Below are positions 6,467 to 33,989 of a stretch of 33,989 nt of DNA, one piece after another. Position 1 is the stretch's first letter. Every line of letters starts with the position of its first letter. Made by a program: the position numbers and the translations under genes. This DNA comes from a virus, in the IMG/VR virus record IMGVR_UViG_3300010391_001345, positions 1-33,989 of that record; one strand, 5' to 3'. The notes under the pieces are model-generated. The model did no database searches and was not told the origin of the DNA. It was given only the letters and a program-made list of their open reading frames with translations.

Positions 6467-6888
6467 GAACGGCTCGGGCAGACTTCCAGCCACACACCAA
6501 ACGTAGGACGGGCAACTTTCTCAGCCGCCGCAGCCGCCTTCGCGTGGGAGCCCTTGGCGTTCATCACAGCCGTCTGAAGCTGCGCGATAGCTACTTTATG
6601 CCGAGATGCTTCTTCTTCGAGCCACGCCATCGTACCACCAAACACGGCACGTTCCGGCGATTCGGAGGACGTAGTTGTCTTCAAACGGGCCGACAGCCAT
6701 TCCATGTCACGACGCATCTCGTTGAGATCACGCAAGTGGCGGTCAATTTCCCGCAAGTGCATGAACGTCACCGTGAAAACGAAGACGTCCTCATAGCTCG
6801 TTCCGACCTCTTTCTTGGCGAGAGCCAACACCTCTGGAATGTCAAGCTTGCCGGGGGCTGGGGAACCGCCAATAACTTCAGCTTCCAC
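6463..6888 (-). CDS. helical (coiled-coil) hypothetical protein
   Basis: 141 residues from a GTG at 6888 with AGGAGG at 5-base spacing, the ribosome binding site starting right at the TAG of the previous gene. Residues about 35-130 are predominantly charged helix (EIDRHLRDLNEMRRDMEWL, EEEASRHKVAIAQLQTAV), probably coiled coil. There is no membrane helix or cysteine cluster. The codons for Ser-Pro-Ala-Pro-Gly near the N-terminus are one copy of a 14-base repeat found elsewhere in the window (6850-6863). Function unknown. Confidence 0.65.
   Translation of the reverse strand: MEAEVIGGSPAPGKLDIPEVLALAKKEVGTSYEDVFVFTVTFMHLREIDRHLRDLNEMRRDMEWLSARLKTTTSSESPERAVFGGTMAWLEEEASRHKVAIAQLQTAVMNAKGSHAKAAAAAEKVARPTFGVWLEVCPSRS
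6850..6863 (-). repeat. copy of 14-bp repeat CCCCAGCCCCCGGC
   Basis: On the minus strand this is an exact copy of the core found also at 8777-8790, 22022-22035, 22064-22077 (inverted) and 31110-31123. Here it lies inside a gene and encodes SPAPG. It is followed four bases later by TTGACA, but no -10 box is at the right distance. Confidence 0.7.
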
Positions 6889-8752: not shown

Positions 8753-8996
8753 TGCCTTGATCCTTCGATGGTTGCCCCCCAGCCCCCGGCGAACGGAGCC
8801 TTAAGGTCGGGTCGGGAAGAGACATGTTGCTTCCTGCCCGTATCTGGTGTAGCGCCAGTATATTGTCAATGAGCTTGACGTACTGGAGTGCCGCTTCGCC
8901 CTTCCAAATCATGACGGTGCCGTCGTCCAACTCGATTTCAACACGAGCCACCTTTGGCTGCGAGGTTGTAGCAGGTTGCGTGTCAACTAGCTTCAT
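8745..8996 (-). CDS. small hypothetical protein
   Basis: 83 residues from an ATG at 8996, with GGAGGAGG upstream. A beta hairpin (ARVEIELDDGTVMIWKG) is followed by a helix (ALQYVKLIDNILALHQ) and a disordered Pro/Gly-rich tail. The tail codons include one copy of the 14-base repeat (8777-8790). The gene overlaps both neighbours by 8-14 bases, consistent with one operon. Function unknown. Confidence 0.6.
   Translation of the reverse strand: MKLVDTQPATTSQPKVARVEIELDDGTVMIWKGEAALQYVKLIDNILALHQIRAGSNMSLPDPTLRLRSPGAGGQPSKDQGNG
8777..8790 (+). repeat. copy of 14-bp repeat CCCCAGCCCCCGGC
   Basis: Exact copy of the repeat core on the plus strand. It sits in the 3' end of the 8745-8996 gene, antisense to its coding direction. 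Confidence 0.7.
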
Positions 8997-9661: not shown

Positions 9662-12600
9662 CTATACCTGATCCCATGACCGACCGATTTGCGCGTCAGC
9701 CGGGAACAAACACTTGTGACCGTCCAATTCAATCTCTGAGGTCATAGTCTGTGTAACAAGCGCCGCCACCTCTTCTCCACGATCCTCGTCTGTCTCGATA
9801 ACCAGCGCGTCGTGGATCTGCATGATGATCCAGTCGCGCTTGCGATCTAGCTTCTCCCACAGATCGAGCACGCACATGTCCATCAAGTCTGCGGCTGTGT
9901 TCTTGGACACAACACCCTCGCTGTCGAATCTGTGCAGGGAGTTGTGTACTGCCAATGTGTATGTAGGCTCATGCTTGTTCAGTTCTCTCTTGTGCTTCAA
10001 TTTCCTGTAACCATACAGGGGCATAGGTAGTTCCACTCCAGTTTTGTCCAAAAGCCACTTCAATGTGTACACACTGATTGTTCCTCCATTAAGCAAGCGA
10101 AGCCACAAAACGTAGCCACTTTCGCCACACGTGTGGCGTGTTATTGGCAGGTGCCTGAAGTGATTACGTATCCACTCACAAATAAATACAGGAACGGCCA
10201 TGTGTATTCGCGGTTTGCAACGTGCTGTTTTGTCGTCTACACGGGACATGAACATATTGCCGATGGTGTCCAGTCGATAGCTAATATACTCACCATACTT
10301 GTACGGTCCACGAACTGACGATTCAACTCCAAGCGTGCGAAGAAGAAGCCGCACGTCTTCCAGTAGTGGCCGCTGACAGAGGTGCAGATTGGGACCACCC
10401 CACTCAGGACGACTGGCGTAGCCGTCGGAGTCGAACAGACCCTTCACGAAAGCTTTTCGGTTGGCTAGGCTCTCTCCGAAGACACGTTCCGGTACTCGTT
10501 TTGTTTGTGCTAGGGCAGGTGGTACACTCAAGTCCCGCAACCAGCGAACAAGGTCAACACTATAGAAGTTGACTGTGTACACATAGTGTGTTCCAGAAGG
10601 GAGCCTTCGACAACGCAGGTCGACATTTGCGTGTAAGCCCCACTTTTCCCAATAGTTGCAACACTGTTCCAGTTTGTCTATCTCATGCCTACCGAAGACG
10701 TAGAAGAGATTGCCGTATGTTTCGCATTTTGGTTTTCCATGAGAATTATGGTGGAGTGACAGATAGCCGTCACCGTAGTAGTAACCAATCCAGTACCAGA
10801 AATCGGCATCAATTTGCTGAGGGTGTAGCTGGATCGTGGCTTTTGCTGATCGCCGTAATGGGGGAAGAGGTGCGGGTGGTGAAAATTCTATGGGGAAAAC
10901 CATTGGTACGGCGACACGGTCTCCTTCCTTCAGGTCCTTGAAGGTTTTCCACACATAACCCGTGTCTTCGATACAAAGCACTTCGTGTCGCGTGTCACAC
11001 GGTAAGATAGTACCTCCTTGAAGTTCAAGTTCGGCACGTTGCCACTTCCCACGATCTAGTATGTCGAAGGGTGCCCACTGGGTACCCGTCCACACTTCGT
11101 CTGTTGGCTTCTTGTCCTGTAAGAGACTTTTCAGCGTTCGGTAGCCGCCGCGTTGCACGAGTACACGTGTGTGTACAGGCAAACACCCTTGGACCGGATG
11201 ATTCACAGCTTGTGTCGGGTCGAGGCGTCCCAACGGGAACGGGCGCTTACGGCCTAGTAGTGGCGACACAATCTCCTGGCTGGTGACAGCATCGATAGCA
11301 GCCTTCTTGCGCCATGCTTCAATTTGTGGCCACATTTGTGGAAACATCTGGACGAAGCGGACACACTGTTCGGGCTCAATTTCCATACCCATGTCACGCA
11401 GTTTCTCGTCTGACCGCAACTTTATGAACAGGTTCTCGGCAGTCGAGCCGTACAAGGAAGCATACGTAGCACGCTTTGTAAGCTCGCGGAGGCGTTTCAT
11501 TGCCGTTCCGCTCTCCTTGTACTGCTTTTGTTCTTCTGCAAACCGCGTCTCGAACTGACGGCGCTGTAGCGGGCTGGTAGCTGACGCCATCAGCCGCTCC
11601 AACTCTTCCATATTCTGTTTGGCCTGTGCCATATTACGTGTCAGAATGGGCCAGACATCCGAATACAGCCTTGCCGCGTTTTCGGAGTGAATGTCGCGTG
11701 TAGAATCGCACAGAGCTTCAAGCAGGTCCTCTTGCCCGGCCAACAACGCAATGATGCGGAATTCCACTTGTGCAAAATCGGCACCTACAAAAATACGTCC
11801 CGGTGGCGCAACAATCATTCGTCGTAAGTTGCGTACTGTATCTTTGTAGTCTTTTTTCCAGTTCATCATATTTGGGGCGCATGTCCAACGTCCCGTAACT
11901 GCACCCCAAATCTTCCAATCAGGATGAATACGCCCATCTTCACCCAACCTCAGGCCAATACCCTCTACGAAAGTCGAGACTAGCTTTTCGGAGGCACGGT
12001 AATCAATCAAAGCTCTTGTTAGAGGATGTCCTATTGTTGCGATTATCTCGTTTTTGGTAGAGCGTAATTTCGTCTTGGGTGTGATCGACCCCGGAGGTGC
12101 CGGAACTTCCAGAAGGTCCATCAACGCAGTCATCTGGTACGGACTCGCTAGCGAGAGGCGCTTCGTTTTTTGAACGGACTTCAAGAAACGTTCGATATAG
12201 ACTGGGTGCGTTTCGTCATTGATAGCCTCTATGGCCATCGAGTGAATTTTATCAACAGCCTCCTTCGCGCGTTGCTTCAATGCCTGCCCGATTTCGTCAC
12301 GTACCTCAGCATCCAAGGGCACGCCCCGAATACGCATGTGCCGAGCGACTTCAGACAGTCTTACATCAAAGTCCGCTACGTGCCGAACATCCATCTCTCG
12401 GCATTCTTCGTCCAAGTAGGGAGCAACCCCTAAGGTAGTTGCAGCGTCACCAGCGTTGTACTGAAGTTCGTCCTCAATATCCTTGATACCGCGTCGCTTA
12501 CGCACGGCTTCTCTCGCGTAGTATTCGGCCTTCCACGGATTCGTAATAAGGAAATTGCACACAACACTGGACAGATCGTGGTCGCATTCTGGAGCGATAA

Positions 12601-13558
12601 CGTGGTGCTCAAGCAGCGTGTCACGTATTGGGCCGCGTATGGGAAGGTCGTGACGTTCGAGAACCGTTTGGTCAAACGTAAAATTGTGTAGAACTTTTGG
12701 TACGGCTTCATCTGCCAGCAACGCTCTGATAGCCTCACGTTGCGCCAATGTTGCAGTCGGCCACCACAACGACAACACCAAAACACCATCGGCGTCCTTG
12801 ATAGCAATCCCGATGATAGTCAGGTTGGTCGTCAATGCGTCCAGGCTGTCGGATTCGATGTCGACCGCGATCAGCTTCTTGGCCTTCCGCGCATTCGTGC
12901 AGAACTCGACGGTATCCGCAGGGTCGCACCGGTAGAACTTGAACTCCTCTTGTTCGCCATTTGCAAAGCGCCACGCCTTCGCCAAGTCGTTTGCGACTGC
13001 CTGCGCCTCGGCATCCGACGTCTTCCCCGGCCTTGCGTCTCCGCCTTGTCCACCTGCACGAAGCAGCATCGCAGGGTGCCATGTCGGGAAGATAGCGTGG
13101 CCCTTCCAGTCGCGGAACAGCGCACCTCGCTGCGGTCGCTTGCCTCCTAGCGGGATGCGATGTCCCATGAGGCCCCACGTAGCACTCACACCCAACGCCA
13201 AAACGACTTTAGATTGGAGGTCGCCTTCAGCCTCGCGACGCTCGGCACAACAAGCTAGTGCGTGCTCGAACATAGTTCCAACCCCGTGAGGGCCAGGATC
13301 GTGCATCAGTTTCTCTTTGTCGGAATCGATTGGGCCGCAAAGGAGAACGTTGCCGATGCGAATGCTTTCACGCGGAATGTTGTAGAAACCAAGAAACTGA
13401 TCCAGCAATTGCCCGGCTTGTCCGACAAAGGGCTTGCCTTGTCGGACCTCGGTCATTGCCGGAGCTTCACCGATGATGGCGAGCTTGGCGTCAATTGGAC
13501 CGTCGAAGCCGACACGAGTACGGGTCTTGAAGGGACAAGTGGCACAAGCGTCGCTCAT
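9662..13558 (-). CDS. uracil-DNA glycosylase / family A DNA polymerase fusion, interrupted by an intein
   Basis: 1298 residues, 869 after intein removal. Residues 1-195 are a family 4-type uracil-DNA glycosylase: CATC at 5-8 and C74 for an iron-sulfur cluster, GEAPAMTEVRQGKPFVGQAG at 30-49, and TWHPAMLLR at 159-167. Residues 228-380 are a DEDDy 3'-5' exonuclease (D233, E235; HNFTFD with D296; Y367-x3-D371). The polymerase follows: motif A GADFAQVEFR (592-601), and motif B R691-x3-K695-x3-Y699-x3-Y703-G. The NHPVQG/TAAD block is split by the intein, and motif C is IHDALVIE near the C-terminus. Tyr699 stands where E. coli Pol I has Phe762. The enzyme probably replicates the phage genome. The glycosylase domain may remove or sense uracil ahead of synthesis. 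The ATG overlaps the previous stop (ATGA). Confidence 0.93.
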   Translation of the reverse strand: MSDACATCPFKTRTRVGFDGPIDAKLAIIGEAPAMTEVRQGKPFVGQAGQLLDQFLGFYNIPRESIRIGNVLLCGPIDSDKEKLMHDPGPHGVGTMFEHALACCAERREAEGDLQSKVVLALGVSATWGLMGHRIPLGGKRPQRGALFRDWKGHAIFPTWHPAMLLRAGGQGGDARPGKTSDAEAQAVANDLAKAWRFANGEQEEFKFYRCDPADTVEFCTNARKAKKLIAVDIESDSLDALTTNLTIIGIAIKDADGVLVLSLWWPTATLAQREAIRALLADEAVPKVLHNFTFDQTVLERHDLPIRGPIRDTLLEHHVIAPECDHDLSSVVCNFLITNPWKAEYYAREAVRKRRGIKDIEDELQYNAGDAATTLGVAPYLDEECREMDVRHVADFDVRLSEVARHMRIRGVPLDAEVRDEIGQALKQRAKEAVDKIHSMAIEAINDETHPVYIERFLKSVQKTKRLSLASPYQMTALMDLLEVPAPPGSITPKTKLRSTKNEIIATIGHPLTRALIDYRASEKLVSTFVEGIGLRLGEDGRIHPDWKIWGAVTGRWTCAPNMMNWKKDYKDTVRNLRRMIVAPPGRIFVGADFAQVEFRIIALLAGQEDLLEALCDSTRDIHSENAARLYSDVWPILTRNMAQAKQNMEELERLMASATSPLQRRQFETRFAEEQKQYKESGTAMKRLRELTKRATYASLYGSTAENLFIKLRSDEKLRDMGMEIEPEQCVRFVQMFPQMWPQIEAWRKKAAIDAVTSQEIVSPLLGRKRPFPLGRLDPTQAVNHPVQGCLPVHTRVLVQRGGYRTLKSLLQDKKPTDEVWTGTQWAPFDILDRGKWQRAELELQGGTILPCDTRHEVLCIEDTGYVWKTFKDLKEGDRVAVPMVFPIEFSPPAPLPPLRRSAKATIQLHPQQIDADFWYWIGYYYGDGYLSLHHNSHGKPKCETYGNLFYVFGRHEIDKLEQCCNYWEKWGLHANVDLRCRRLPSGTHYVYTVNFYSVDLVRWLRDLSVPPALAQTKRVPERVFGESLANRKAFVKGLFDSDGYASRPEWGGPNLHLCQRPLLEDVRLLLRTLGVESSVRGPYKYGEYISYRLDTIGNMFMSRVDDKTARCKPRIHMAVPVFICEWIRNHFRHLPITRHTCGESGYVLWLRLLNGGTISVYTLKWLLDKTGVELPMPLYGYRKLKHKRELNKHEPTYTLAVHNSLHRFDSEGVVSKNTAADLMDMCVLDLWEKLDRKRDWIIMQIHDALVIETDEDRGEEVAALVTQTMTSEIELDGHKCLFPADAQIGRSWDQV
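9899..11185 (-). mobile_element. intein in DNA polymerase with LAGLIDADG endonuclease
   Basis: 429 residues beginning CLPVHTRVLV and ending EGVVSKN, inserted between Gly and Thr of NHPVQG/TAAD. The splicing blocks are visible: Cys1, a block B CDTRHEV, and a block F-like LHRFDSEG. The penultimate residue is Lys rather than the usual His, and the +1 residue is Thr. The endonuclease has two LAGLIDADG-type motifs, WIGYYYGDGYL and VKGLFDSDGYA, so it is probably an active or recently active homing element. Confidence 0.93.
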
Positions 13559-17210: not shown

Positions 17211-19808
17211 CTAGCTCCTCTCCCGGTAACAAGCAGAGCAGTAGTAGTCCACTCCCTTTGTGGGAGGGAATGGGATAGTTGCATCCACCTCGCACTCGGC
17301 ACACCTGATCCAGTGACTCTCGGCCCGTGGTTTCCCTACTACGTACAATGCTTGCTTTGCGCGTGTCGTAGCGACGTACCACAAGTTCTCTTCTTCGACA
17401 TCATCTTTGGATGCTCGCCGAAACGTGCCAGCTAGCACCCACACACGATCCGCCTCCAACCCCTTCGCCTTGTGCACTGTCGAGCATCGAATGCCTTTCC
17501 CATCATCGGTTAGCAGGATCTTCAACTTGGTATTCAAGGCGTCGAGGTCGTCACATTCCGCAGCTAACGTACGTACAGTTGCGTACTGGTCTGCGATACG
17601 TTCGAGCATCCTTTCAGGGGAATGCTGCAAGCGTTCACAACGTTCCACTATCCGTTCACGCTCGTTCGCGTACCATACACGTAGCCAGTCCAACAAGTCA
17701 CTCAGTGTATCGGCTTTGGAGCGCTCGACAAGCAACCTGACGCTCTTGCCGATGTCCTTACCGACCATGTACGCTTTCTTGCCCCGTGCCAAGAAATCCA
17801 AACAGGTATCGAAAGCGCCGACGTTGGTTCTACTGAGCACGAAATCACCATCACTGGCTCTTTCGTGGGAGTCGCAGAAAGTCACGTTTCCTGCCGGTGC
17901 GCCCTCCCATGCTTCAAGATCCGGGACCGTCCGCTTCGCGTACTTGACTATTTCTTGACCACACCTGTAGCAAATAGGCAGAGGCATAACCTTCGCCTTC
18001 AATTCGGAAATGAGCCGTTGGACGTTGCTTGTTGACGCACCACGGAACCCGTAAATGCTGTTATGTACACATACTCCACCTACAAAGTAATTAGCCAAAT
18101 TCTCAATTTCAAGATCGCGGCACGTGAATTGCCCAGCTTGTTCCATGCGCAATTTGACCCGATCACGTTGGATCTGGTGCTCTGGCCCAACCGCTACGAT
18201 AACGTCCATTCCCGGCCACAACTGCGCTGCATTGAGTGGGCGTACGCTTCCCCCTTCATTCCCGATGGAAAGCCTGTGGCTAATGTAACTAGTAGTTTCT
18301 CCTAGTGCTGCATGCAATTCGTTAGCAAAAATGACAGCATCCTTATATGACCTGAATGCCGCACGAAGCCTACCAAAACGCTTACCGTGTTTTGTCCCAG
18401 CAATACACTGGAATTTTTCCTCGAAGTCTTGCGGTAATGCACTGCTCCACAAACTAACAAGTGTGCCTTGTCTGCCAGCTTGGTTGATGTTTATTGATAT
18501 TTTCCCATTCCCTGTGGCTCTAGCCTTGGTAAGAAAAGCTGGCAACTCGAACAAAAGTCTTCTATCACGAAGCAGCCGTTCACCGTTTTGTCCAAATTCG
18601 GCGAATATCTTTACACGAACTTCCTTATTGATTCGTTCATCAGGACGCGACCAGAAAGTAATTGTCGGAATTTGGTAACGCAGAGAGAGAGACGCTTCTT
18701 TGTATCTAGCTTCGCTTAGAGAAGCCGCGAAATCAACAAACCACATACGCTCAGCTTTTTCTATAGTGGCGCGCGTCATCCAACCAGCACCTTCAACTAA
18801 ATAGCCGCTTCTAGTCACACCAATTCGCCAGCCTAAGGCTTGCTTCCACATTAGGTAAATGAAATACCCACGCGACTCTGGAGATAAAGCTGCGTATACT
18901 ACGTGATTAGGGGTGCACCGAAATTTCTGTCCCTTGTCCGTCTCGAAAGTCAAGATACGTTGATGAGCAGATTGGCTAGTTCTAAGAACTCTAGCCGTCA
19001 CCACATCTTGGCCTTTCGCCGCTAGCACAAAATCTCCTACCTGCAAGGTTTCAATAGGGCGCGGGCCTTTTGGTGTCGAAACAAGTTGCCCGTCGGGGAT
19101 ACACTGACGGTCGTCGCCCACACTAAAAATTCTCCCGCCCTCTTTACAAAGCCTCTTCGCTAGCTCGATTTGGCACGGATTGAGATCCTGAACCTCATCA
19201 ACAAAAACCACGTCGTACGGAAGTAGCGGAAGGTTGAGAACTATCGGCAGCCAGATCATGTCATCGAAGTCAATTTCCGGACTGACCGTCTTACACTGTT
19301 CGAGAGCTTCCATGACCAACGGAAACAGGTCCGGCCAGAAAGTAGCAGCTTCTTCCCTCTCAGCGGCCATTTCGTAAAGTTCGTCTTCGTTCTGTACCAG
19401 ACAGTTTTTTGCCAGCGACAGCAATGACACGCCAGCACGAAACTGCTCGAAGCCTTCACGACTCTTCGTGTTGATGTCGTTCTCTTCAAGGAGGGTACGT
19501 ATGATTCCCTCGGCACGGGTGCGTTCTACCCGTACAGCACCCCAAGCCTTCATGACAATTTCACGCCCGAGACTGTGCAAGGTACGCGCATCGGCACGCG
19601 GAGGTACTCGCCGTTCCAGTTCCTTCTGCGTCTCCTTGCCGAAGGCACAGAACACAATGCGTTTGAATTTAGGAACGTACTTGATAGCCTCCAGAATAGT
19701 GGTCGTCTTTCCGCTTCCGGCACGCGCCTGAATGACGACGTTGGACGTTCCTGTCTTGACTTCCTCGAAAATAGCCTTTTGATAATCAGACCACATACAG
19801 CTTACCAT
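17211..19808 (-). CDS. UvrD/Rep-type superfamily 1 helicase, interrupted by an intein
   Basis: 865 residues, 517 after splicing. Helicase motifs in order: Walker A ARAGSGKTT (28-36), FCAFGK, TLHSLGRE, motif II VFVDEVQDLN (DEVQD at 204-208), and motif III VGDDRQ/SIYGFRGAS, split by the intein. The C-terminal part has motif V STVHKAKGLEADRVWVL and motif VI LWYVATTRAKQALYVV. The C-terminus adds a zinc ribbon (CAECEVD...YYCSACYRE). Such enzymes unwind DNA 3' to 5' with ATP during replication or repair. The start is an ATG at 19808 overlapping the previous stop by 7 bases. An ATG at 19796 is an alternative. It is more compact than host UvrD. Confidence 0.9.
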   Translation of the reverse strand: MVSCMWSDYQKAIFEEVKTGTSNVVIQARAGSGKTTTILEAIKYVPKFKRIVFCAFGKETQKELERRVPPRADARTLHSLGREIVMKAWGAVRVERTRAEGIIRTLLEENDINTKSREGFEQFRAGVSLLSLAKNCLVQNEDELYEMAAEREEAATFWPDLFPLVMEALEQCKTVSPEIDFDDMIWLPIVLNLPLLPYDVVFVDEVQDLNPCQIELAKRLCKEGGRIFSVGDDRQCIPDGQLVSTPKGPRPIETLQVGDFVLAAKGQDVVTARVLRTSQSAHQRILTFETDKGQKFRCTPNHVVYAALSPESRGYFIYLMWKQALGWRIGVTRSGYLVEGAGWMTRATIEKAERMWFVDFAASLSEARYKEASLSLRYQIPTITFWSRPDERINKEVRVKIFAEFGQNGERLLRDRRLLFELPAFLTKARATGNGKISININQAGRQGTLVSLWSSALPQDFEEKFQCIAGTKHGKRFGRLRAAFRSYKDAVIFANELHAALGETTSYISHRLSIGNEGGSVRPLNAAQLWPGMDVIVAVGPEHQIQRDRVKLRMEQAGQFTCRDLEIENLANYFVGGVCVHNSIYGFRGASTSNVQRLISELKAKVMPLPICYRCGQEIVKYAKRTVPDLEAWEGAPAGNVTFCDSHERASDGDFVLSRTNVGAFDTCLDFLARGKKAYMVGKDIGKSVRLLVERSKADTLSDLLDWLRVWYANERERIVERCERLQHSPERMLERIADQYATVRTLAAECDDLDALNTKLKILLTDDGKGIRCSTVHKAKGLEADRVWVLAGTFRRASKDDVEEENLWYVATTRAKQALYVVGKPRAESHWIRCAECEVDATIPFPPTKGVDYYCSACYRERS
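18060..19103 (-). mobile_element. intein in UvrD-like helicase, no recognisable endonuclease motif
   Basis: 348 residues, from CIPDGQLVSTPKGP to NYFVGGVCVHN, inserted between Gln and Ser of helicase motif III (DDRQ/SIYG). Cys1, block B CTPNHVV and the terminal His-Asn are intact. The +1 residue is Ser, so splicing should work. The roughly 200-residue middle (SLSEARYKEASLSLRYQIPT and following) shows no LAGLIDADG or HNH motif by eye. It may be a diverged or decayed homing endonuclease. Confidence 0.92.
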
Positions 19809-22013: not shown

Positions 22014-22035
22014 GTGGTGGACCCCAGCCCCCGGC
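22014..22035 (+). repeat. 22-bp repeat containing the 14-bp core
   Basis: These 22 bases are identical to 31102-31123. The last 14 (22022-22035) are the CCCCAGCCCCCGGC core that occurs five times in the window. Confidence 0.75.
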
Positions 22036-22079
22036 TAGGCAAGCCGGTGGAGGCGCTAGACTCGCCGGGGGCTGGGGTC
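22020..22079. repeat. perfect 16-bp inverted repeat with 28-base loop
   Basis: Arms 22020-22035 and 22064-22079 are exact reverse complements (GACCCCAGCCCCCGGC), each containing the 14-bp core. It fills the gap between the DUF669 gene and the 21729-21995 gene. A transcript would form a very GC-rich hairpin. No U-run follows on either strand, so it is not a standard intrinsic terminator. It may halt or protect RNA 3' ends, or be a protein-binding site. Confidence 0.75.
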
Positions 22080-22110
22080 GACCGACCCAATTACGCTTCC
22101 GAAGCCGCTG

Positions 22111-22746
22111 TTACTGCGGCGTCGGGATATTAGCCGGACGCCGGAAAGGCGACCGCTGTACCGGAGCCGTCGCAACTGCCGCAGGCTTCGTGGCCAGTGC
22201 GGGCTTCGACACGGGCTTCGGCGCCGCAGGCTTCGCAGGAACCGTAGCGGGCTTCGCCGCCGCCTTCGGTGCTTCTACCGGAGCTTCCACCGGAACTTCC
22301 GAAGTGTTGGTGCTCTCGTCCTGCGGCAGGTAGATACGCTGCACACGAGTCTGGACTTCGCCCGCGTGATCGGGGCGGTTGTCGTTCTCGTTGCGAGTGC
22401 GAATCATGGCACGCATGCCGACCATCATGTCGGTATCGCCCGACCCGGTATCGTAGTCGAACGTGCCGGGAAACGCGTCGAACAGTTCCTTCAGACGCTG
22501 GGCCACGAAGGACTCGGGGCCTTCGGTGTCGAGCGGCAGATTGCGCCGGTCGAAAATGCGCCGATTGCGGAATTCGGCGGGCTCCTCGACCTTGAACTGG
22601 AGAACGATCAGGTTCCGCCCCGGTGTGGCCGTAGGCTTCACTTCCGCACTGAGCACCTCGATGAGATACTCGCCGGGGGGCAACGGCTCAAACGAACCGC
22701 TCGGCGCCTGTGCATCGTTCATGTTGATGTTGACTTTGAACTGCAT
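22111..22746 (-). CDS. DUF669-type phage protein (putative ssDNA-binding)
   Basis: 211 residues from an ATG at 22746 with GAGGAG upstream. The longer frame to 22788 lacks support. The N-terminal 140 residues follow the DUF669 pattern: PGEYLIEVLSAEVKPT, a strand pair around LIVLQFKVEEP, RRIFDRRNLP, a helix (VAQRLKELFDAF) and VGMRAMIRTRNEND. The C-terminal 60 residues are a Pro/Ala/Lys-rich unstructured tail ending FRRPANIPTPQ. DUF669 genes usually sit beside Sak4-like ATPases and nucleases in phage recombination modules and are thought to bind single-stranded DNA. That is the context here. Confidence 0.7.
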   Translation of the reverse strand: MQFKVNINMNDAQAPSGSFEPLPPGEYLIEVLSAEVKPTATPGRNLIVLQFKVEEPAEFRNRRIFDRRNLPLDTEGPESFVAQRLKELFDAFPGTFDYDTGSGDTDMMVGMRAMIRTRNENDNRPDHAGEVQTRVQRIYLPQDESTNTSEVPVEAPVEAPKAAAKPATVPAKPAAPKPVSKPALATKPAAVATAPVQRSPFRRPANIPTPQ

Positions 22747-22808
22747 TGCTTCTCTCTCCTCTTTCCGTTCCCCTGCGGGGACTACCACGCAACCCCTTGC
22801 TGCGTGTG

Positions 22809-23702
22809 CTAACCAGCACTATCTGACGGTGCTGTGTTGTCGTTGCTAGCACCATCGCTTGCAAACGACTGGATTTCCTCTTCGGTCGGCGTCGCTTCCT
22901 CTAGCGGAGCTTCCGGTCCTTCCGGCCCGTACAATGGCTTCTCCAGAAGCTGCATTACGGCTGCAAAAGTAGGCTCGATCTTTCCGGGAACCGGCGCTCC
23001 ACGGACACGTGCGGAGTAGTACCGGTGGCGAGCGCTGTGTGCATACCACGCAGGGCCGCCTTTCAGTGTCTTACCCGCTTCAAGGTACAGAACGACGTCC
23101 ATGACGTTCCAGACTGTGCGCTGAAGCGTCTTGAACATCTTCGGATAACCTTCGATGTCACCTGTCAGGTCGTCCTTTTCGGTGTCTACACCGGCTGTCC
23201 AGACCTTCTGGCAACCGGGCCACGAGTGGATGCGCTCGATGATCTCACGAGTGGCGTTGGCAACAACACCCCAATCGGCCTGAGCTAAACCACGTCCACG
23301 CTCTTCCTGTGCGCGTCGCCTTTCGGCAAGAAGCATGTCCACGATAAAAGACAGGGAATCGATGGCAACCGTACGGAACGGGAAATTATTCTTTGCGATG
23401 TTCTCCTCGGCACGATTGATCTTCTCTGCCAGCATGATGCTGTCAGTGATGTCCCAGTAGAGGGTGTACGGGTCACGGCGAAGCGTACGAACACTGTTCT
23501 CCGCAGTCGGGTTGAAGTACAGGATCGGCTTCGGGAATGTGCCAATCATGGTCGTCTTTCCCGAACCTGCCTGCCCATAAAGCAGGAAAGTGTACTCTCG
23601 TACGCTGATTGTCGAGGCGGATTTCAGGTCAGGATCCCACGCCTCAGCATCAAACTCATATGGGTTGAATAGCGGGTTGTTGTAGTTGATTATCGCGCCC
23701 AT
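22809..23702 (-). CDS. Sak4-like / AAA_24 RecA-fold ATPase
   Basis: 297 residues from an ATG at 23702 with AAAGGAG upstream. Walker A is GQAGSGKT (43-50), and Walker B is TVAIDSLSFI (Asp115). A Gln/Trp-rich region (QADWGVVANATREIIERIH) and VDTEKDD follow. The C-terminal 60 residues are acidic and Pro-rich. This is the layout of phage Sak4 single-strand annealing ATPases, which promote annealing or strand exchange together with a DUF669/SSB-type protein, encoded next. It probably serves recombination-dependent replication. Confidence 0.8.
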   Translation of the reverse strand: MGAIINYNNPLFNPYEFDAEAWDPDLKSASTISVREYTFLLYGQAGSGKTTMIGTFPKPILYFNPTAENSVRTLRRDPYTLYWDITDSIMLAEKINRAEENIAKNNFPFRTVAIDSLSFIVDMLLAERRRAQEERGRGLAQADWGVVANATREIIERIHSWPGCQKVWTAGVDTEKDDLTGDIEGYPKMFKTLQRTVWNVMDVVLYLEAGKTLKGGPAWYAHSARHRYYSARVRGAPVPGKIEPTFAAVMQLLEKPLYGPEGPEAPLEEATPTEEEIQSFASDGASNDNTAPSDSAG

Positions 23703-23742
23703 TGAATCTCCTTTGCGACCCCTTGTCGCAAGCTCCAGAAAA

Positions 23743-24195
23743 CTAGCGGCACCCCTTGTGCACGCTTCCGAACGTCCAAAGCCCTCCGCCGACGCTGAAC
23801 TTGTTCGGCTGGGGCTGCTTGAATGTCACTTGGCCAGTACCACAGTCAATGACTGCACCTGTAGCACGTAGAAAATCGAGTCCGATCAAGTTGCGTGGAG
23901 GGTCAATAATAGGTACGGCCGCACCAATGGTGGCAGTGTGCCCTCCTACAGTAAGCGTGACAGGTAAGATGTAGCACCGAACGTGTTCATTGCTCGGCGT
24001 CACAGCCATCTCAATCTTGCCGTGCTTGGGGCGACCAGCGAAAAGAAAAACGCTCGGAGCACCCAACTTGTTCGCGAGATCGTGGCGCAATACCGTTCGT
24101 TCCGATCCCGAAATCCTACCCGTGGCCTTGAACTCGCCACACGGCGTTCGCGCGGTAAACGGCTTGTCTATTGTTGTTTTCGGGAGCTTGTTCAT
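23743..24195 (-). CDS. retropepsin-fold protein lacking the catalytic Asp motif
   Basis: 150 residues from an ATG at 24195 with AAGGG seven bases upstream. The C-terminal half (LPVTLTVGGHTATIGAAVPI, then LIGLDFLRATGAVIDCGTG and QVTF) follows the second half of clan AA aspartic proteases. The upstream ERTVLRHDLANKLGAP fits the helix that follows the catalytic D-T/S-G. At the expected DTG the sequence reads GRISGSE, so the nucleophilic Asp is missing. The fold may be kept for binding. The protein sits in a recombination operon, overlapping the 47-residue gene by four bases. Confidence 0.55.
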   Translation of the reverse strand: MNKLPKTTIDKPFTARTPCGEFKATGRISGSERTVLRHDLANKLGAPSVFLFAGRPKHGKIEMAVTPSNEHVRCYILPVTLTVGGHTATIGAAVPIIDPPRNLIGLDFLRATGAVIDCGTGQVTFKQPQPNKFSVGGGLWTFGSVHKGCR

Positions 24196-24353: not shown

Positions 24354-25352
24354 TCACTTCTCGCTCCAGTCCATCCCACCGAAAATCTTTGGGGCTTCCG
24401 GGTCGGTAGGATCGGGTACCGGCTCGATAGTGCCTTCTGAGCCGTAGACTTCTTCTAGAGCACCTACATTATTCAGATTAGAAGTGATCTGGTCCTTACA
24501 CAGATCAAAATACGCGCATTTAAAGCCCGAATTGCATCCCGTAAGATTACGCGGCCAACCCAACTTCTCCGCAATGGGCTGTATCTCCAGCAATGCTTTG
24601 ATGGCGTCAACGTGCATCTGAATGTTGCGCGGACGAAGCCGGAAAACCAACCGCTCAAACTTAGGTGTCTTCGTTTTGACAATCAAGTTGATGATCAGCC
24701 CCTTGACTTGATTGCCCCACCTCTTCTGCGCCAACCACAGCAACCCAAGGATTTCACCCTGCATTGCCCAGTCAGTCACGCTGTCGTCCAATGCACGTGC
24801 TGTTTTGTGATCAACGACCCAGATACCGTCCAACCTCTTGATAGCCAAGTCCATCCGACAGGTGTAGTTGAACGGCGTATCGGTCTGGAGCATTTCTTCG
24901 ACCGCAACTATCTCTGTTCCCGGCGCGAAGAAATCGTCGGGACGGCTGATGACGTTGCCTTTCGAGTCCTTGATGACCTTACCGCCCGCCTGCCAGTAAT
25001 AGAGATAGGCTTCCATGAGCCGCATGACTTCTTCAACAGCCTTTTCGTACCCGTTGATGCGGCAGACCTCGATCATCTTGTCGATTTGCTCACTCGGATC
25101 TTGTCCAAGCGGTGTCGAGTACCATGTGGCTAGAATTTCATGCAGCAACGTCCCAATGGCGAGTGCTGGAGAGTAGAAACGGTCTACCTTGAGTTGCTCT
25201 GAGAGGTGATACTTGTACCAGCACTGGAATCTCGTAGCGAAGGTGTGCCACCCGTACGGGGTGCCACCACCCTTTCGCCCGAGAGTTTCGAGCAGCTTGT
25301 CCAATGGCGGGCGTTCCGCCGAGACCTGACGGTCAATATTGAAACCGGCCAT
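24354..25352 (-). CDS. RecB/Cas4-like PD-(D/E)XK nuclease with four-Cys cluster
   Basis: 332 residues from an ATG at 25352 with GGAAG upstream. A GTG at 25376 would fall inside the second 5' hairpin. Core motifs are GTLLHEIL (His71), MDLAIKR (Asp168), VVDHKTA (Asp181 and Lys183) and QGEILGLLWL. Cys44 near the N-terminus plus C273, C279 and C285 near the C-terminus are placed like the iron-sulfur cluster of Cas4 and AddB nucleases. It probably resects DNA ends as the nuclease partner of the Sak4-like and DUF669 proteins encoded downstream. It is the first gene after the promoter at 25478-25507. Confidence 0.85.
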   Translation of the reverse strand: MAGFNIDRQVSAERPPLDKLLETLGRKGGGTPYGWHTFATRFQCWYKYHLSEQLKVDRFYSPALAIGTLLHEILATWYSTPLGQDPSEQIDKMIEVCRINGYEKAVEEVMRLMEAYLYYWQAGGKVIKDSKGNVISRPDDFFAPGTEIVAVEEMLQTDTPFNYTCRMDLAIKRLDGIWVVDHKTARALDDSVTDWAMQGEILGLLWLAQKRWGNQVKGLIINLIVKTKTPKFERLVFRLRPRNIQMHVDAIKALLEIQPIAEKLGWPRNLTGCNSGFKCAYFDLCKDQITSNLNNVGALEEVYGSEGTIEPVPDPTDPEAPKIFGGMDWSEK

Positions 25353-25373
25353 ATTCTCTTCCGCCGACGGCAC

Positions 25374-25405
25374 CACGGGCCTCGTGTCCCCTTGGCCCTT
25401 ACGTG
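25374..25405 (-). promoter_or_regulatory. 5'-leader hairpin 2 of a tandem pair
   Basis: On the minus strand: CAC, unpaired GTAA, 5-bp stem GGGCC/GGCCC, a loop containing AAGGGGACA, then GTG closing on the CAC. It ends 21 bases before the nuclease ATG. It shares bulge, loop core and outer pairs with the hairpin at 25429-25458, while two stem pairs differ in a compensating way. Confidence 0.6.
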
Positions 25406-25428
25406 GTTCGTCGCTTTTGTCGGCTTCT

Positions 25429-25458
25429 CACAGGTCGTTGTCCCCTGACCTTTACGTG
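25429..25458 (-). promoter_or_regulatory. 5'-leader hairpin 1 of a tandem pair
   Basis: On the minus strand: CAC, unpaired GTAA, 5-bp stem AGGTC/GACCT, a loop AGGGGACAAC, then GTG closing on the CAC. It lies about 13 bases behind the predicted transcription start (about 25471) and 55 bases from the start of the second hairpin. Confidence 0.6.
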
Positions 25459-25477
25459 AGCTTGCCGAACTGGAAGG

Positions 25478-25507
25478 ACTCTACCCGAGAATAAGGAGGG
25501 CTGTCAA
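25478..25507 (-). promoter_or_regulatory. promoter TTGACA-N18-TAGAGT
   Basis: Minus strand: -35 TTGACA (25507-25502), 18-base spacer, -10 TAGAGT (25483-25478). It lies between the sigma-like gene and the nuclease gene, with a predicted leader of about 120 bases holding two hairpins. It should drive the recombination operon. Confidence 0.7.
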
Positions 25508-25541
25508 TACCTTTTCGGCGTCGGACATTGTCTACGCGAAA

Positions 25542-25787
25542 CTACTTTCGTGGGGCGCAACGCAGTTTGCGTAGGGCCTTTTGCTCAATTTCCCGAATAC
25601 GTTCGCGGGCAGCACCGAAGTCCTGCGCGACCTCGTCTAACGAGTGCTCACTAGCCACCCCGAGGCCAAAGCGCATACGCAGAATCTTCTGCTCCTTCGG
25701 CGTGAGGGTGTTCAGGACGGCGCCAACACGCTCGTTCAGGTCACCTAGACCCGCTAGGACATTCTTCGTGTGGGCTATTGCACTCAT
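25542..25787 (-). CDS. stand-alone sigma-70 region 4-like protein
   Basis: 81 residues from an ATG at 25787 with GAGG six bases upstream. Residues about 26-78 reproduce sigma region 4: [16 protein letters not shown], then [10 protein letters not shown] and [15 protein letters not shown], the helix-turn-helix that reads the -35 box. Regions 1 to 3 are missing, so it cannot act as a full sigma factor. It could instead bind RNA polymerase or the -35 element as an anti-sigma, appropriator or repressor. It lies just before a TTGACA promoter. Confidence 0.8.
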
Positions 25788-25795
25788 GAGCGGCC

Positions 25796-26323
25796 TCAAT
25801 TAAGCACCCTCAACCCGAGCAGCACGACCCCACCTGTCACCAGCCCTGTCACCACAAAGCGCAGCAAGGCCACAACCACACGATGCTTGAATTCGGCCTT
25901 CTGGCGGGTTTCCAGACGCCGCAGCGCTTCCCAGTCGCGGAGAGTCATTTTGGCGGTGTACCAGCGTGTCCGTACAATTTCCCATAGCAGGTACTCTTTG
26001 AAAAACCACGCTTCCTGCTTTGGCAGCCACTCTGCTAGACGCTTGCCATGCTCCTCACGCGTCTCACCTTCCTCTCTTCGCGGTTCGGTAGGCCCTGATG
26101 GCATTACCGGCTCTGTGCCGGGATTTGGTGGCGGACTAGCTACGTCACTGGCCGGATGCAGCTTGGCATAGGCTGCTTCGTACAGCGTTGCCCAGTCACG
26201 GATAGCTGCCTTGAAAGCATCAGCATCCTTGAAGCTGTTAATGTCAGGTGCTTCCGGCAGACCCTCCTTGTCCAACTTCGGCAGTTCCTTTGGGGGTACC
26301 GTCTCCGTCTTCTCCTCGCTCAT
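25796..26323 (-). CDS. hypothetical protein with C-terminal membrane segment
   Basis: 175 residues from an ATG at 26323 with GGGAG upstream. The N-terminus is Pro/Glu/Lys-rich and probably disordered, with two helical parts ([20 protein letters not shown]; Trp-rich [19 protein letters not shown]). The last 25 residues are hydrophobic ([10 protein letters not shown], then [15 protein letters not shown]). This again gives a tail-anchored design, like the proteins at 0.3-4.3 kb. Function unknown. Confidence 0.65.
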
Positions 26324-27189: not shown

Positions 27190-29667
27190 TCAATCGTCTC
27201 TCCCCGCCAAGTCAAAACTGCGTTGGATCATGCCCAAAATCGACTTGGCGATTTCCTTGTCACGCAGTGTATCACGAGATTGCAACCCACTGACATCCGC
27301 CATCATCTGCTGGTCACCTTCCAACGACTTCCCGAGTGCAGCGGCCATTCCCGCCTTCCCCCATAGGGCATCCACAATATGCGCCTCGATAGTGTCATCG
27401 GCAACTAGCCAGTAGGTTATGCAAGGTTGGGTCTGACCGCTACGGAAAACGCGCGCTTCCGCCTGCGACATGTCAGCGGCCGTCCAGGAAAGCTCTGCCT
27501 GGATCGTGATGCGGGCGCGAGTCAGGTCGATAGCAAAACCACTTGCCGACATCGTGCTGATGAACTTGTTAGCTGCACCACTCTTGAAAAGGTCGATTTT
27601 CTCGTCGCGCTTCTTACGGGACTCCTCGCCTGTAACGACTACCGCGTCCGAGTAGGGCTTCCCTATCGCTTCCGCCACGTCGCGGTGCCACGTCCAAACA
27701 ACAACAGGTTCGCCGCAGGAACGGATGAGTTCCTGCACAGAATGCACTTTCGCTCGTCCAACGAGACGCCGCAGCATGTTAACCTGCTGCATACTTTCGG
27801 CACCGCGCAAGTCGGCCTTTTCAAGTGCTTTCAGCACCTCGCGGATGTCCACCGCAAGCCTGTTGTACTCCTCGCGCTGCTCGTCCGACAATGTTACGAC
27901 ACATCTCTCGCGGGTGATAGGCGGGATAGTCATAGCTACTTCCTGCCACGACCGCGCGAACATTACCTCAGACAAACGACTTCGTAGCTCAGGCACATTA
28001 GAGGGATCGCCTAGTACAACGCCATGCTCGCCTTGCTGCGCCCCGGCGTACTTAAACATCCAATCTCGCCACCCTCCCCATCCACCGGGGTTAATCACGC
28101 CAAGAATGCCATACAGGTTAGCGAGGTGCTTGAGAATTGGCGTGCCAGTCAACGCAACGTTGCGGATGTACGGAGAGCAATTGGCTAAGACAGAAGCCCC
28201 CTGCGAACGCTGTGCTTTCGGATTGATGTAGTAGTGTGCTTCGTCGAAAATGACCCAATCCGGCCTGATTGCCGCAAGGTCGTTCCCGCCGCGTGTGCGC
28301 AATAGTTCCGGGTTGACAATGTAAATATCAGCATCTGCAACCAGTTGTGCTCCGGTCTTCGCGTGGCCGCGAACAATCTGAATCTTCGCGCGAGTGGTAG
28401 CGTCAACCGGATCGTTGTTTTGGGGATCCACCCATGTTGTAGGTGATTTAGGATCCCACAAGGCCAGATCGCCGTAAGCGTTCTGAAGTTCCTTGATCCA
28501 GACCTTGAACGCGACGAGCGGCGAGACAATGACGCCGCGTCCCCAGCCGACGGCGACAAGAGCAGTACGTGTCTTTCCGCAGTTATGGACTACAATGCCG
28601 TTAGCTACAAAGTTGTGGTATGGACTGTCCATCACAACATCAAAAACAACCGTTTTACCGTCCGAGCGCACCGAAGCTACTTTGTCAGGCTTTGGGAAGA
28701 AGCAAACTTCTCCACCTTTTCCGGCGAAGCCTTTCAGGCGTCGATACACCCTGTGCAAGCGCATGTGAGTTGCAACGTCGACTAGTTCCAGATTCTCTAC
28801 ACGGTTATCCGCGCGGTTTCCGTTGACATGATGCACCTGCTCATTCGGGAAGAGATGTCTCCCAAAAAAACGCTCCATAACGAGAATGTGCTCATATACC
28901 TGCCTATCCTTACCTGCCCTCGGGTGGTTTACGCATCGCACACGGATGTAACCGTCTTTGTCTAGTGTGCGTGCATACTGTTCCTTGTAAACATGCCGTT
29001 GGGGTACCCATGAAGTGTGCAGCCCGCCACAAATTTCACATGCTGGAATTCCGTTCGTCCAGACCTCCACTCCCGGAGAAAGTGCTTCGACTGCACACCA
29101 ACTACCATCAGTCAGCCCGACCTCGTGATCAGGCGTGAGGCGTAGAACTTTTCCAGAAGCAAGTTCGAGCCTTACTACAGGCCGTACCCCAACGTACGCG
29201 ATGTCCAACATACGATGAAGGCGAAGCTCATCTCCACAAAGCGCCCGCAAGTAGGTAGGAATGGTAGGGTCCCACCCACCCGTTTTGTAACCACAACCCA
29301 CGTGGTGCGTTTTGTTGTAAACTTCTATTAGTCTGTAAGGCCGTCCCATCCCTCCACGGTTCACTCGTACGACAGCATCTCCCTCGACACAACCCATCGC
29401 CAGCGCCAGCAACGTCCCGCGTCTGTCCGCGCAGAACTTGGCAGCCTCGCGCTGGTAGGGTCTTAGTGCGTCATCGGGAACGTCGATGACGTGCTCTTCG
29501 GGTGGAGCCGGAAACTGCTTTCGCGTCTCTTCGGACAAGAGGGGCCACATCGAGCGATGGATCTTCACCAGCCCAGTGTTGCCGACCTGCCGGACGCCGG
29601 GCACACCGTTCAGTTCCGTCAGCGCGGACGGCTGCACCCGTTGCAACCAGTCGAACTCCCACTTCAT
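27190..29667 (-). CDS. SNF2-type superfamily 2 helicase, interrupted by an intein in the P-loop
   Basis: 825 residues, 555 after splicing, from an ATG at 29667. A TTG at 29730 coincides with the -35 box and is rejected. After a short N-terminal region, RPYQREAAKF is the Q-like motif. Walker A is split as LLALAMG/CGKTRTALV by the intein. DEAH is in VIFDEAHYYIN, motif III in VALTGTPILKHLAN, and motif VI in QAEARVFRSGQTQPC. This is the SNF2/RapA-like family of DNA translocases common in phage replication modules. The helicase cannot bind ATP until the intein is removed, so splicing controls activity directly. Confidence 0.9.
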   Translation of the reverse strand: MKWEFDWLQRVQPSALTELNGVPGVRQVGNTGLVKIHRSMWPLLSEETRKQFPAPPEEHVIDVPDDALRPYQREAAKFCADRRGTLLALAMGCVEGDAVVRVNRGGMGRPYRLIEVYNKTHHVGCGYKTGGWDPTIPTYLRALCGDELRLHRMLDIAYVGVRPVVRLELASGKVLRLTPDHEVGLTDGSWCAVEALSPGVEVWTNGIPACEICGGLHTSWVPQRHVYKEQYARTLDKDGYIRVRCVNHPRAGKDRQVYEHILVMERFFGRHLFPNEQVHHVNGNRADNRVENLELVDVATHMRLHRVYRRLKGFAGKGGEVCFFPKPDKVASVRSDGKTVVFDVVMDSPYHNFVANGIVVHNCGKTRTALVAVGWGRGVIVSPLVAFKVWIKELQNAYGDLALWDPKSPTTWVDPQNNDPVDATTRAKIQIVRGHAKTGAQLVADADIYIVNPELLRTRGGNDLAAIRPDWVIFDEAHYYINPKAQRSQGASVLANCSPYIRNVALTGTPILKHLANLYGILGVINPGGWGGWRDWMFKYAGAQQGEHGVVLGDPSNVPELRSRLSEVMFARSWQEVAMTIPPITRERCVVTLSDEQREEYNRLAVDIREVLKALEKADLRGAESMQQVNMLRRLVGRAKVHSVQELIRSCGEPVVVWTWHRDVAEAIGKPYSDAVVVTGEESRKKRDEKIDLFKSGAANKFISTMSASGFAIDLTRARITIQAELSWTAADMSQAEARVFRSGQTQPCITYWLVADDTIEAHIVDALWGKAGMAAALGKSLEGDQQMMADVSGLQSRDTLRDKEIAKSILGMIQRSFDLAGRDD
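28582..29391 (-). mobile_element. intein in SNF2 helicase with HNH endonuclease
   Basis: 270 residues from CVEGDAVVRVNRGG to NFVANGIVVHN, placed inside Walker A (AMG/CGKT). Cys1, block B LTPDHEV, block F SPYHNFVANG and the terminal His-Asn are intact. The +1 residue is Cys. An HNH-type endonuclease is inserted (EHILVMERFFGRHL, then VHHVNGNRADNRVENLEL), with CxxC (CEIC) just upstream. It should splice and home. Confidence 0.93.
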
Positions 29668-29701
29668 GCTACGCTCGAAAAGCTCCCTCTTCCGCAAACT
29701 G

Positions 29702-29730
29702 ATTCTAACAGGAGGTAGGCGTACAGTCAA
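29702..29730 (-). promoter_or_regulatory. promoter TTGACT-N17-TAGAAT
   Basis: Minus strand: -35 TTGACT (29730-29725), 17-base spacer, -10 TAGAAT (29707-29702). It lies between the DUF3987-type gene stop and the helicase ATG at 29667. Its -35 box overlaps the end of the upstream gene. Confidence 0.65.
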
Positions 29731-31101: not shown

Positions 31102-31123
31102 GTGGTGGACCCCAGCCCCCGGC
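31102..31123 (+). repeat. 22-bp repeat containing the 14-bp core, between divergent promoters
   Basis: Identical over 22 bases to 22014-22035. The core CCCCAGCCCCCGGC is at 31110-31123. It ends 11 bases before the rightward -35 box, a position suited to an activator or repressor site. Confidence 0.75.
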
Positions 31124-33142: not shown

Positions 33143-33626
33143 ACAAGTAAAGAAACAAGCGGGCTTCACTGCGTATATCGAAGTCGACGAAACGCCCGAC
33201 AACCCTCGTGACTGGGATAACCTAACAGTGATGGTGGCTTTTCACAGACGCTACAACTTTGGGGACAAGCACGCCTATCGACAAGAGGACTATTCTAGTT
33301 GGGACGGATTGAAACAAGCTATTGAAGAACAGTATCATCCCCTTATCATCGAGCCTCTCTTCGCGTACATCCATAGCGGTGTCGTTCTCAGCACAACACC
33401 CTTCAGTGACTCGTGGGATAGTGGACAAGTCGGCTTTGTCTTTATCCCATACTCCAGCGTCAAGGAAGTAGCTGCCTATCGCCCAAAGAAGCCTGCGCTA
33501 ACAGCTTATCACGACCCACACATGTACGAACGTGCTGTGGCTAAACAGATCGTCGAGAACGAAGTAGCTACATACAACAAGTTTCTCGAAGGTCAACTAC
33601 CGCCAGCTAAAGCAGGCGGCTTGTAG
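33129..33626 (+). CDS. conserved phage-type hypothetical protein with C-terminus altered by an insertion element
   Basis: 165 residues from an ATG at 33129 with AGGAG seven bases upstream, overlapping the NADAR remnant. It has a familiar unassigned pattern: NPRDWDNLTVMVAFHRRYNFGD, then PLFAYIHSGVVLSTTPFSDS and WDSGQVGFVFIP. I know this pattern from short phage and bacterial proteins of unknown function. The last nine residues (LPPAKAGGL) are read antisense through the end of the tnpB gene and its hairpin. The original C-terminus was therefore probably cut off by the insertion. Confidence 0.75.
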   Translation: MAYREQVKKQAGFTAYIEVDETPDNPRDWDNLTVMVAFHRRYNFGDKHAYRQEDYSSWDGLKQAIEEQYHPLIIEPLFAYIHSGVVLSTTPFSDSWDSGQVGFVFIPYSSVKEVAAYRPKKPALTAYHDPHMYERAVAKQIVENEVATYNKFLEGQLPPAKAGGL

Positions 33627-33989
33627 GTAGCAGGTTGTTGAATCCCTACTCCCACGTTTGGCCGGTTGACTGCGGCCCTGCGGATATTCTCCGCAGCGAT
33701 GGTATCTGCCGGGCCAGCGAACCCGCAGCGGATACACTTGAACAACGCTTGTGTCGGACGGTTACGTTTGTCGATACAATCGCATCTTGGGCAGGTACGC
33801 GAGGTGTTGCGTGGATCGACAAAGACAACGCAGACTCCTACCAACTGCCCTTTGTAGTCGATGAAGGATCGCAATTGGTAGAAGCCCCAAGAGTGCTGGA
33901 CACGCCGCTGAGCCTTGCGAACCGTGATCCGTGCACGGATGCCTTTGAGGTCTTCAAGGGCAATTCCGCGCCCGGTGTCTTTGGCTTTC
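33593..33989 (-). CDS. tnpB: TnpB (IS200/IS605-type RNA-guided nuclease), 5' part beyond window edge
   Basis: About 131 C-terminal residues open to the edge. GIALEDLKGIR carries the second RuvC Glu. DPRNTSRTCPRC, then KNRPTQALFKCIRCG form the four-Cys zinc ribbon (written here as two segments). PADTIAAENI has the third RuvC Asp. The C-terminus PPALAGGS is usual for the family. TnpB is an RNA-guided DNA nuclease that helps the element persist, and its guide RNA normally derives from the 3' end of this gene and the right end. The window cannot show whether a tnpA accompanies it. Confidence 0.92.
   Translation of the reverse strand, partial: KAKDTGRGIALEDLKGIRARITVRKAQRRVQHSWGFYQLRSFIDYKGQLVGVCVVFVDPRNTSRTCPRCDCIDKRNRPTQALFKCIRCGFAGPADTIAAENIRRAAVNRPNVGVGIQQPATYKPPALAGGS
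33600..33619 (-). repeat. hairpin at the tnpB 3' end, candidate IS right end
   Basis: On the minus strand CCGCCTGC-TTTA-GCTGGCGG folds into a stem with one T-T mismatch and a 4-base loop. It lies five codons before the tnpB stop and is followed by TAGTTGAC. Imperfect hairpins beside a short cleavage sequence mark IS200/IS605 ends, and the same region usually forms the guide-RNA scaffold. Confidence 0.5.

Follow-up and report, generated by a model that had tools for sequence, protein, structure and literature searches.

What do two tandem bulged hairpins do in the leader of a phage nuclease operon? The hairpins lie in a 33,989-base IMG/VR virus record (IMGVR_UViG_3300010391_001345), analyzed here over its whole length (the window), which is a phage fragment carrying genes of replication and recombination, almost all of them on the minus strand. 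The preliminary description had reported two units of the same plan behind a TTGACA/TAGAGT promoter, and the sequence, the coordinates, the promoter, and both units were found as it gave them. The features of the locus, all on the minus strand, are as follows.

25478..25507, minus strand: promoter TTGACA-18-TAGAGT (consensus scan, 10 of 12 matches)
near 25471-25470, minus strand: predicted transcript start, from promoter spacing
25420..25468, minus strand: hairpin H1, 49 nt, GUAA bulge at 25455-25452, loop AGGGGACAAC
25414..25419, minus strand: single-stranded linker CAAAAG between H1 and H2
25365..25413, minus strand: hairpin H2, 49 nt, GUAA bulge at 25402-25399, loop AAGGGGACACGA
25356..25363, minus strand: likely ribosome-binding sequence, CGGCGGAAG region, directly behind H2
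24354..25352, minus strand: PD-(D/E)XK (Cas4/RecB-like) nuclease gene, from its likely ATG
23743..24195, minus strand: 150-aa ORF, second gene of the run
22809..23702, minus strand: Sak4-like ssDNA annealing protein gene (phrog_124, E 1.9e-29)
22111..22746, minus strand: DUF669/ssDNA-binding-like protein gene, likely ATG behind GAGGAG

From the promoter match we infer transcription of the leader. H1 begins ∼7 nt past the promoter and ∼3 nt from the predicted transcript start, and the predicted 5′ UTR comprises little beyond H1 and H2. The nuclease matched phrog_1218 (E 4.8e-13) and PF12705 (E 1.8e-8), the 150-aa ORF gave no PHROG match and no significant Pfam match, and the DUF669 gene matched phrog_2300 (E 1.3e-24), phrog_6015 (SSB, E 4.2e-6), and PF05037. 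The gene order behind the leader is nuclease, 150-aa ORF, Sak4-like, and DUF669/SSB-like, and on the basis of these matches the downstream genes are assigned recombination functions. Directly upstream of the leader promoter (25542-25799, minus strand) lies the gene of an 85-aa protein consisting of sigma-70 region 4 only, a possible phage transcription switch factor.

H1 and H2 were defined by folding, by pair probabilities, and by pair-by-pair comparison. Both follow a common plan from the base upward, with an outer stem, a small internal loop, a middle stem, a bulge, an inner stem, and a loop, and each contains three 5-bp stems and a 4-nt bulge (GUAA) confined to the 5′ side. The outer stems are UCGGC/GCCGA in H1 and CGACG/CGUCG in H2, the middle stems are CUCAC/GUGAG and ACCAC/GUGGU, and the inner stems are AGGUC/GACCU and GGGCC/GGCCC, respectively. 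The GUAA bulge and the loop core AGGGGACA are identical in the two copies; if an extra G-C pair forms, the loops are GGGACAA and GGGACA. Pair probability was at least 0.93 for 26 of the 30 pairs, the remaining 4, at stem bases, had values of 0.58 to 0.81, and the loops and bulges were predicted to be mostly unpaired. The predicted stabilities of the two hairpins were −18.2 and −23.9 kcal/mol, and the predicted leader fold is well supported. Because all 30 pairs are Watson-Crick (zero G-U) and the opposite strand folds too, folding cannot name the strand.

Compared pair by pair, H1 and H2 differ on both sides at 9 of 15 pairs and are the same at the other 6, with no one-sided change and no broken pair, a comparison that amounts to one contrast without a phylogeny. 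All five pairs of the outer stem differ. Leader sequence is free where paired and fixed where unpaired. The count of nine takes the pairing by structure; in the 36-column covariance-model alignment the inner stem is imperfectly placed, so that the tool's own pair count understates the case. The covariation comes from two paralogous units in one genome, since no homologue was found outside the contig. When the 3′ letters of H2 were shuffled, all 15 pairs were kept in 1 of 100,000 trials, and the leader fold had a z-score of −3.4, with equally stable shuffles in 0 of 200. A scan for the plan (5 bp, 4-nt 5′ bulge, 5 bp, 8-13-nt loop) found three instances in the window, two of them H1 and H2, as compared with 0.46 per shuffled genome, and a tandem pair appeared in 0 of 300 shuffled genomes. 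By local folding z-score the leader ranked only 5th of 847 windows of 120 nt, so that folding strength alone is not unique, whereas the repeated plan is. The case for two units of one plan with covarying stems is stronger than the preliminary description made it, the units being 49-nt three-stem hairpins with 9 of 15 pairs compensated. We conclude that the leader is a real, well-formed structured RNA with internal duplication, of a type absent from the databases searched.

At gathering cut-offs Rfam 15 matched nothing in the window, and over 25300-25530 it matched nothing even at E up to 5, which bears out the preliminary description, where no known class was recognized. No close relatives were recovered from IMG/VR with the nuclease, Sak4, or the DNA polymerase, none with the nuclease from GTDB species genomes, and none by nuclease tblastn against INPHARED; database matches of Sak4 reached 28% identity only. 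The UvrD/Dda-like helicase (intein removed) retrieved 80 loci at 30 to 41% identity, none with the nuclease or the hairpin motif, and a distant Sak4 match occurred in one record only. Motif pattern scans of IMG/VR and species genomes gave no further copy, and comparison of the leader with INPHARED and PLSDB returned short chance matches only. Among the pattern matches, L002 and L003 fall in coding sequence for a peptide that they share; folding of L084-L087, L088-L093, L094-L104, and L106 revealed the tandem plan in none of them, and L089, with a single 5-bp stem within overlapping ORFs, was taken as chance. The covariance-model search that had been proposed for finding additional copies covered the window together with 76 virus records encoding a related helicase and produced no convincing one. 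Its third match in the window (31106-31085) was partial, with an E of 0.24, and lies where predicted folding is no stronger than in shuffles. Another occurrence of AGGGGACA, with CGTAA upstream (21616-21595, inside a 98-aa ORF), was dropped as a third-copy candidate because its alignment score of 14 is within the shuffled maxima (12.45 ± 0.9, maximum 15) and its fold departs from the plan. A lack of homologs preserving the pairing had been named as evidence against the structure, and such a lack was found only in the sense that the databases searched contain no close relatives of the phage. The absence of homologues therefore means that the phage lineage is unsampled and says nothing against conservation of the element.

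Behind H2 the order is GGCGGAAGAGAATATG, the likely ribosome-binding site, and the nuclease gene start, and H2 does not take the ribosome-binding sequence itself into a stem. The nuclease frame is open up to a GTG at 25376, inside H2, and the start codon is uncertain between this GTG and the ATG at 25352. The ribosome-binding sequence was assigned from its spacing to the ATG (25352-25350), as compared with other gene starts in the window, and ATG 25352 behind GGAAG appears to resemble the starts of the other genes more closely than GTG 25376 does. A 10-codon ORF (MRSRQKRRTT; 25399-25431, minus strand), which starts at GTG 25431 behind the H1 loop AGGGG and stops at a TAA within the bulge of H2, could be either a chance frame or a leader peptide; the latter reading was set aside, the ORF being too short to test and the reading being supported by nothing else.

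Fixed unpaired letters on a variable stem are typical of RNA operators that bind proteins. H1 and H2 would together form a cis-acting RNA element accounting for nearly all of the 5′ UTR of a phage recombination operon, and each hairpin would offer the same unpaired letters (the GUAA bulge and the AGGGGACA loop) on a stem of variable sequence. We give an even chance to the reading that they form a tandem RNA operator through which a bound protein controls the recombination operon. This reading is the simplest because the unpaired letters are fixed, the two copies are close together, the element adjoins the ribosome-binding site, and the gene products bind nucleic acids. Against it count the lack of homologues outside the contig, the ribosome-binding sequence left free by H2, and the uncertain start codon of the nuclease. 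Such a pair of copies, set 55 nt apart, would be well matched to a protein that is dimeric or binds cooperatively. Most probably the element would control translation of the nuclease: the likely ribosome-binding sequence lies directly behind H2, and a protein bound to H2 would therefore block the start site. Alternatively, a protein that remodels the RNA would open it. Between these, we infer binding with repression rather than activation. The binder would most likely be encoded among the phage's own genes for recombination or replication and act by feedback in the manner of T4 gp32 and gp43; against this reading, no candidate RNA-binding protein was identified in the contig, nor any CsrA or NusG-like gene. 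The proposal in the preliminary description that the nuclease leader contains a structured RNA or a duplicated site for RNA binding holds, with 9 of 15 pairs compensated in an element located by computation between promoter and gene; its suggestion that the leader controls the nuclease operon, possibly by way of a protein or a small ligand, is carried forward here as a proposal. What is known in detail of how phages regulate recombination and replication genes through RNA comes mainly from T4. If the operator reading is true, this small duplicated operator, with its clear recognition letters, would offer a tractable system beyond T4 and could provide a new RNA-protein pair like those of MS2 and boxB, and structured leaders without database relatives would be shown to be recognizable by internal duplication in a single genome.

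CsrA/RsmA sites present GGA in a leader hairpin loop, often at several sites per leader. The leader likewise has GGA in its hairpin loops, but both loops read AGGGGA and depart from the ANGGA consensus, the conserved 4-nt bulge is foreign to the motif, and no CsrA gene was found in the contig by a search whose controls were positive. For T4/RB69 gp43 the operator is a hairpin whose loop letters are conserved, and T4 gp32 and gp43 are phage precedents for feedback operators (PMC3014915). As in these operators, the leader structure adjoins the ribosome-binding site of a replication/recombination gene, judged here from the likely start codon. The T4/RB69 operators are recognized by a DNA replication/recombination protein, lie upstream of or overlap the ribosome-binding site, and consist of a single hairpin (16-18 nt) or a pseudoknot with an A+U-rich tract, whereas two 49-nt bulged hairpins with a G-rich loop are present here. 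The ANTAR element comprises two hairpins joined by a linker of 5 to 12 nt, has conserved loop letters, and is bound by a dimeric protein (PMC3369931), and the leader resembles it in its two hairpins, conserved loop letters, and short linker (6 nt). However, ANTAR requires hexaloops with A1 and G4 (PMC3369931), which neither the loops AGGGGACAAC and AAGGGGACACGA nor their shorter forms GGGACAA and GGGACA are, and an intrinsic terminator competing with the hairpins, which the leader lacks; the minus strand showed no terminator-like site within the leader or beyond it. LoaP, a NusG paralogue, uses a UNCG-type hairpin in the leader (PMC12691694). Such a loop is absent from H1 and H2, and the contig contains no NusG domain.

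The put RNA of phage HK022 binds the zinc-binding domain of the RNA polymerase β′ subunit and suppresses termination. A put-like antiterminator is the main rival to a protein-bound operator: the nascent two-hairpin RNA would bind RNA polymerase or recruit a factor and so cause read-through of the minus-strand block. HK022 putL (∼70 nt) has two stem-loops just downstream of PL (PMC9378689), and in the leader, too, two adjacent bulged stem-loops lie directly downstream of a (predicted) phage promoter, ∼3 nt from the predicted start, followed by ∼25 kb of minus-strand block in which nearly all genes share the strand. However, put stems I and II are unlike each other, whereas H1 and H2 follow one plan, and terminator-like sites are not enriched downstream. 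Local alignment of the leader with HK022 (NC_002166, 27000-31500, where the put sites were expected but not separately located) revealed no sequence similarity, with a score of 14 versus 14.2 ± 1.3 for the shuffled leader, and we regard antitermination as unlikely. A role in stability or processing, in which 5′-terminal hairpins would protect against 5′-end-dependent decay or offer an RNase III-type cleavage site, agrees with the location of H1 at the extreme 5′ end of the predicted transcript and with the stability of both hairpins. Such terminal protection needs neither fixed bulge and loop letters nor a second copy, however, and the conserved letters of H1 and H2 are the unpaired ones; this role seems quite unlikely.

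That the element acts as DNA, either as a repeated binding site or as an extruded single-strand hairpin (an origin or recombination site), is very doubtful: compensated changes would be unneeded in a double-stranded DNA site and a location between promoter and gene start is as expected of an RNA leader, although the 30 Watson-Crick pairs, the folding of the opposite strand, and the presence of other dispersed repeats and palindromes in the contig would fit such a site. Tandem aptamers with conserved unpaired letters exist, as in the guanidine-II and glycine riboswitches. A sensor of a small ligand built from two similar aptamers is nevertheless most improbable here, given the lack of any Rfam match at E up to 5 and of a terminator or alternative fold in the leader for a ligand to switch. 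Chance resemblance of two unrelated hairpins is scarcely credible; the plan does arise ∼0.5 times per shuffled genome, and 120-nt windows of comparable folding z-score occur elsewhere in the contig, but tandem copies with the same bulge and loop arose in 0 of 300 shuffles, and the outer stems, which were outside that shuffle test, pair in both copies.

Three further hairpins, each a possible operator, lie downstream in the same gene run.

23746..23765, minus strand: H3a, GCG-U-GCAC-AAGGG-GUGC-CGC, upstream of Sak4 and overlapping the end of the previous ORF
23713..23731, minus strand: H3b, UUGCGAC-AAGGG-GUCGCAA, directly before the Sak4 Shine-Dalgarno AGGAG
22786..22806, minus strand: H4, CACGCAGC-AAGGG-GUUGCGUG, upstream of the DUF669 gene

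These were found by a scan for AAGGG pentaloops, and H3a was also folded. Exact AAGGG pentaloops with a stem of at least 4 bp occur three times in the contig, all before Sak4 (at 23757 with 4 bp and at 23724 with 7 bp) or DUF669 (at 22798 with 8 bp). Two have stems of at least 7 bp, as compared with a shuffled mean of 0.044, and two were reached in 0 of 500 shuffles. The loops of H1 and H2 likewise open with A(A)GGGG right behind a C-ended stem but, in contrast to the pentaloops, are 10 to 12 nt long. More tentatively, H1, H2, and the AAGGG hairpins before Sak4 and DUF669 may be sites of one regulon. We treat the shared regulon as a possibility only, because the loop was picked post hoc, the loop sizes differ, and the looser count, of AGGGG in loops of any size, revealed no enrichment. 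AAGGG(G) also serves this phage as a Shine-Dalgarno-like sequence, and ribosome contact is therefore another possible reason for these loops. Sequestration of the Sak4 Shine-Dalgarno by H3b was seen only in a short folding window, was absent in a longer one, and is not proposed here. It is rather unlikely that the leader typifies a new class of phage operator, in which GUAA/AGGGGACA tandem three-stem hairpins would be bound by a phage protein that also acts through the related AAGGG hairpins before Sak4 and the DUF669/SSB-like gene and so coordinates the whole recombination operon at the RNA level.

Several other features of the contig were recorded. The 14-mer GCCGGGGGCTGGGG occurs five times, at 6850-6863 (plus strand), 8777-8790 (minus), 22022-22035 (minus), 22064-22077 (plus), and 31110-31123 (minus); three of the five copies extend to GCCGGGGGCTGGGGTC, and the two within 22016-22083 form a 29-nt near-perfect palindrome between genes. 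The repeat could be an origin, packaging, or recombination signal. A 1298-aa ORF (9662-13558, minus strand) has an N-terminal family-4 uracil-DNA glycosylase domain, a family-A DNA polymerase, and a probable intein, and is annotated from these domains as a UDG-polymerase fusion. In the UvrD/Rep-like helicase (17211-19808, minus strand) an intein interrupts the motif GDDRQ/SIYGFRG, and the SNF2-type helicase (27190-29730, minus strand) carries an HNH-containing intein, so that there are probably three inteins in 34 kb, the polymerase included. The C-terminal part of a TnpB/Cas12f-like RNA-guided nuclease (33593-33988, minus strand) runs off the contig end. A 132-nt direct repeat, 84% identical between 1335-1466 and 2631-2762 in neighboring minus-strand gene regions, looks like a duplicated segment.
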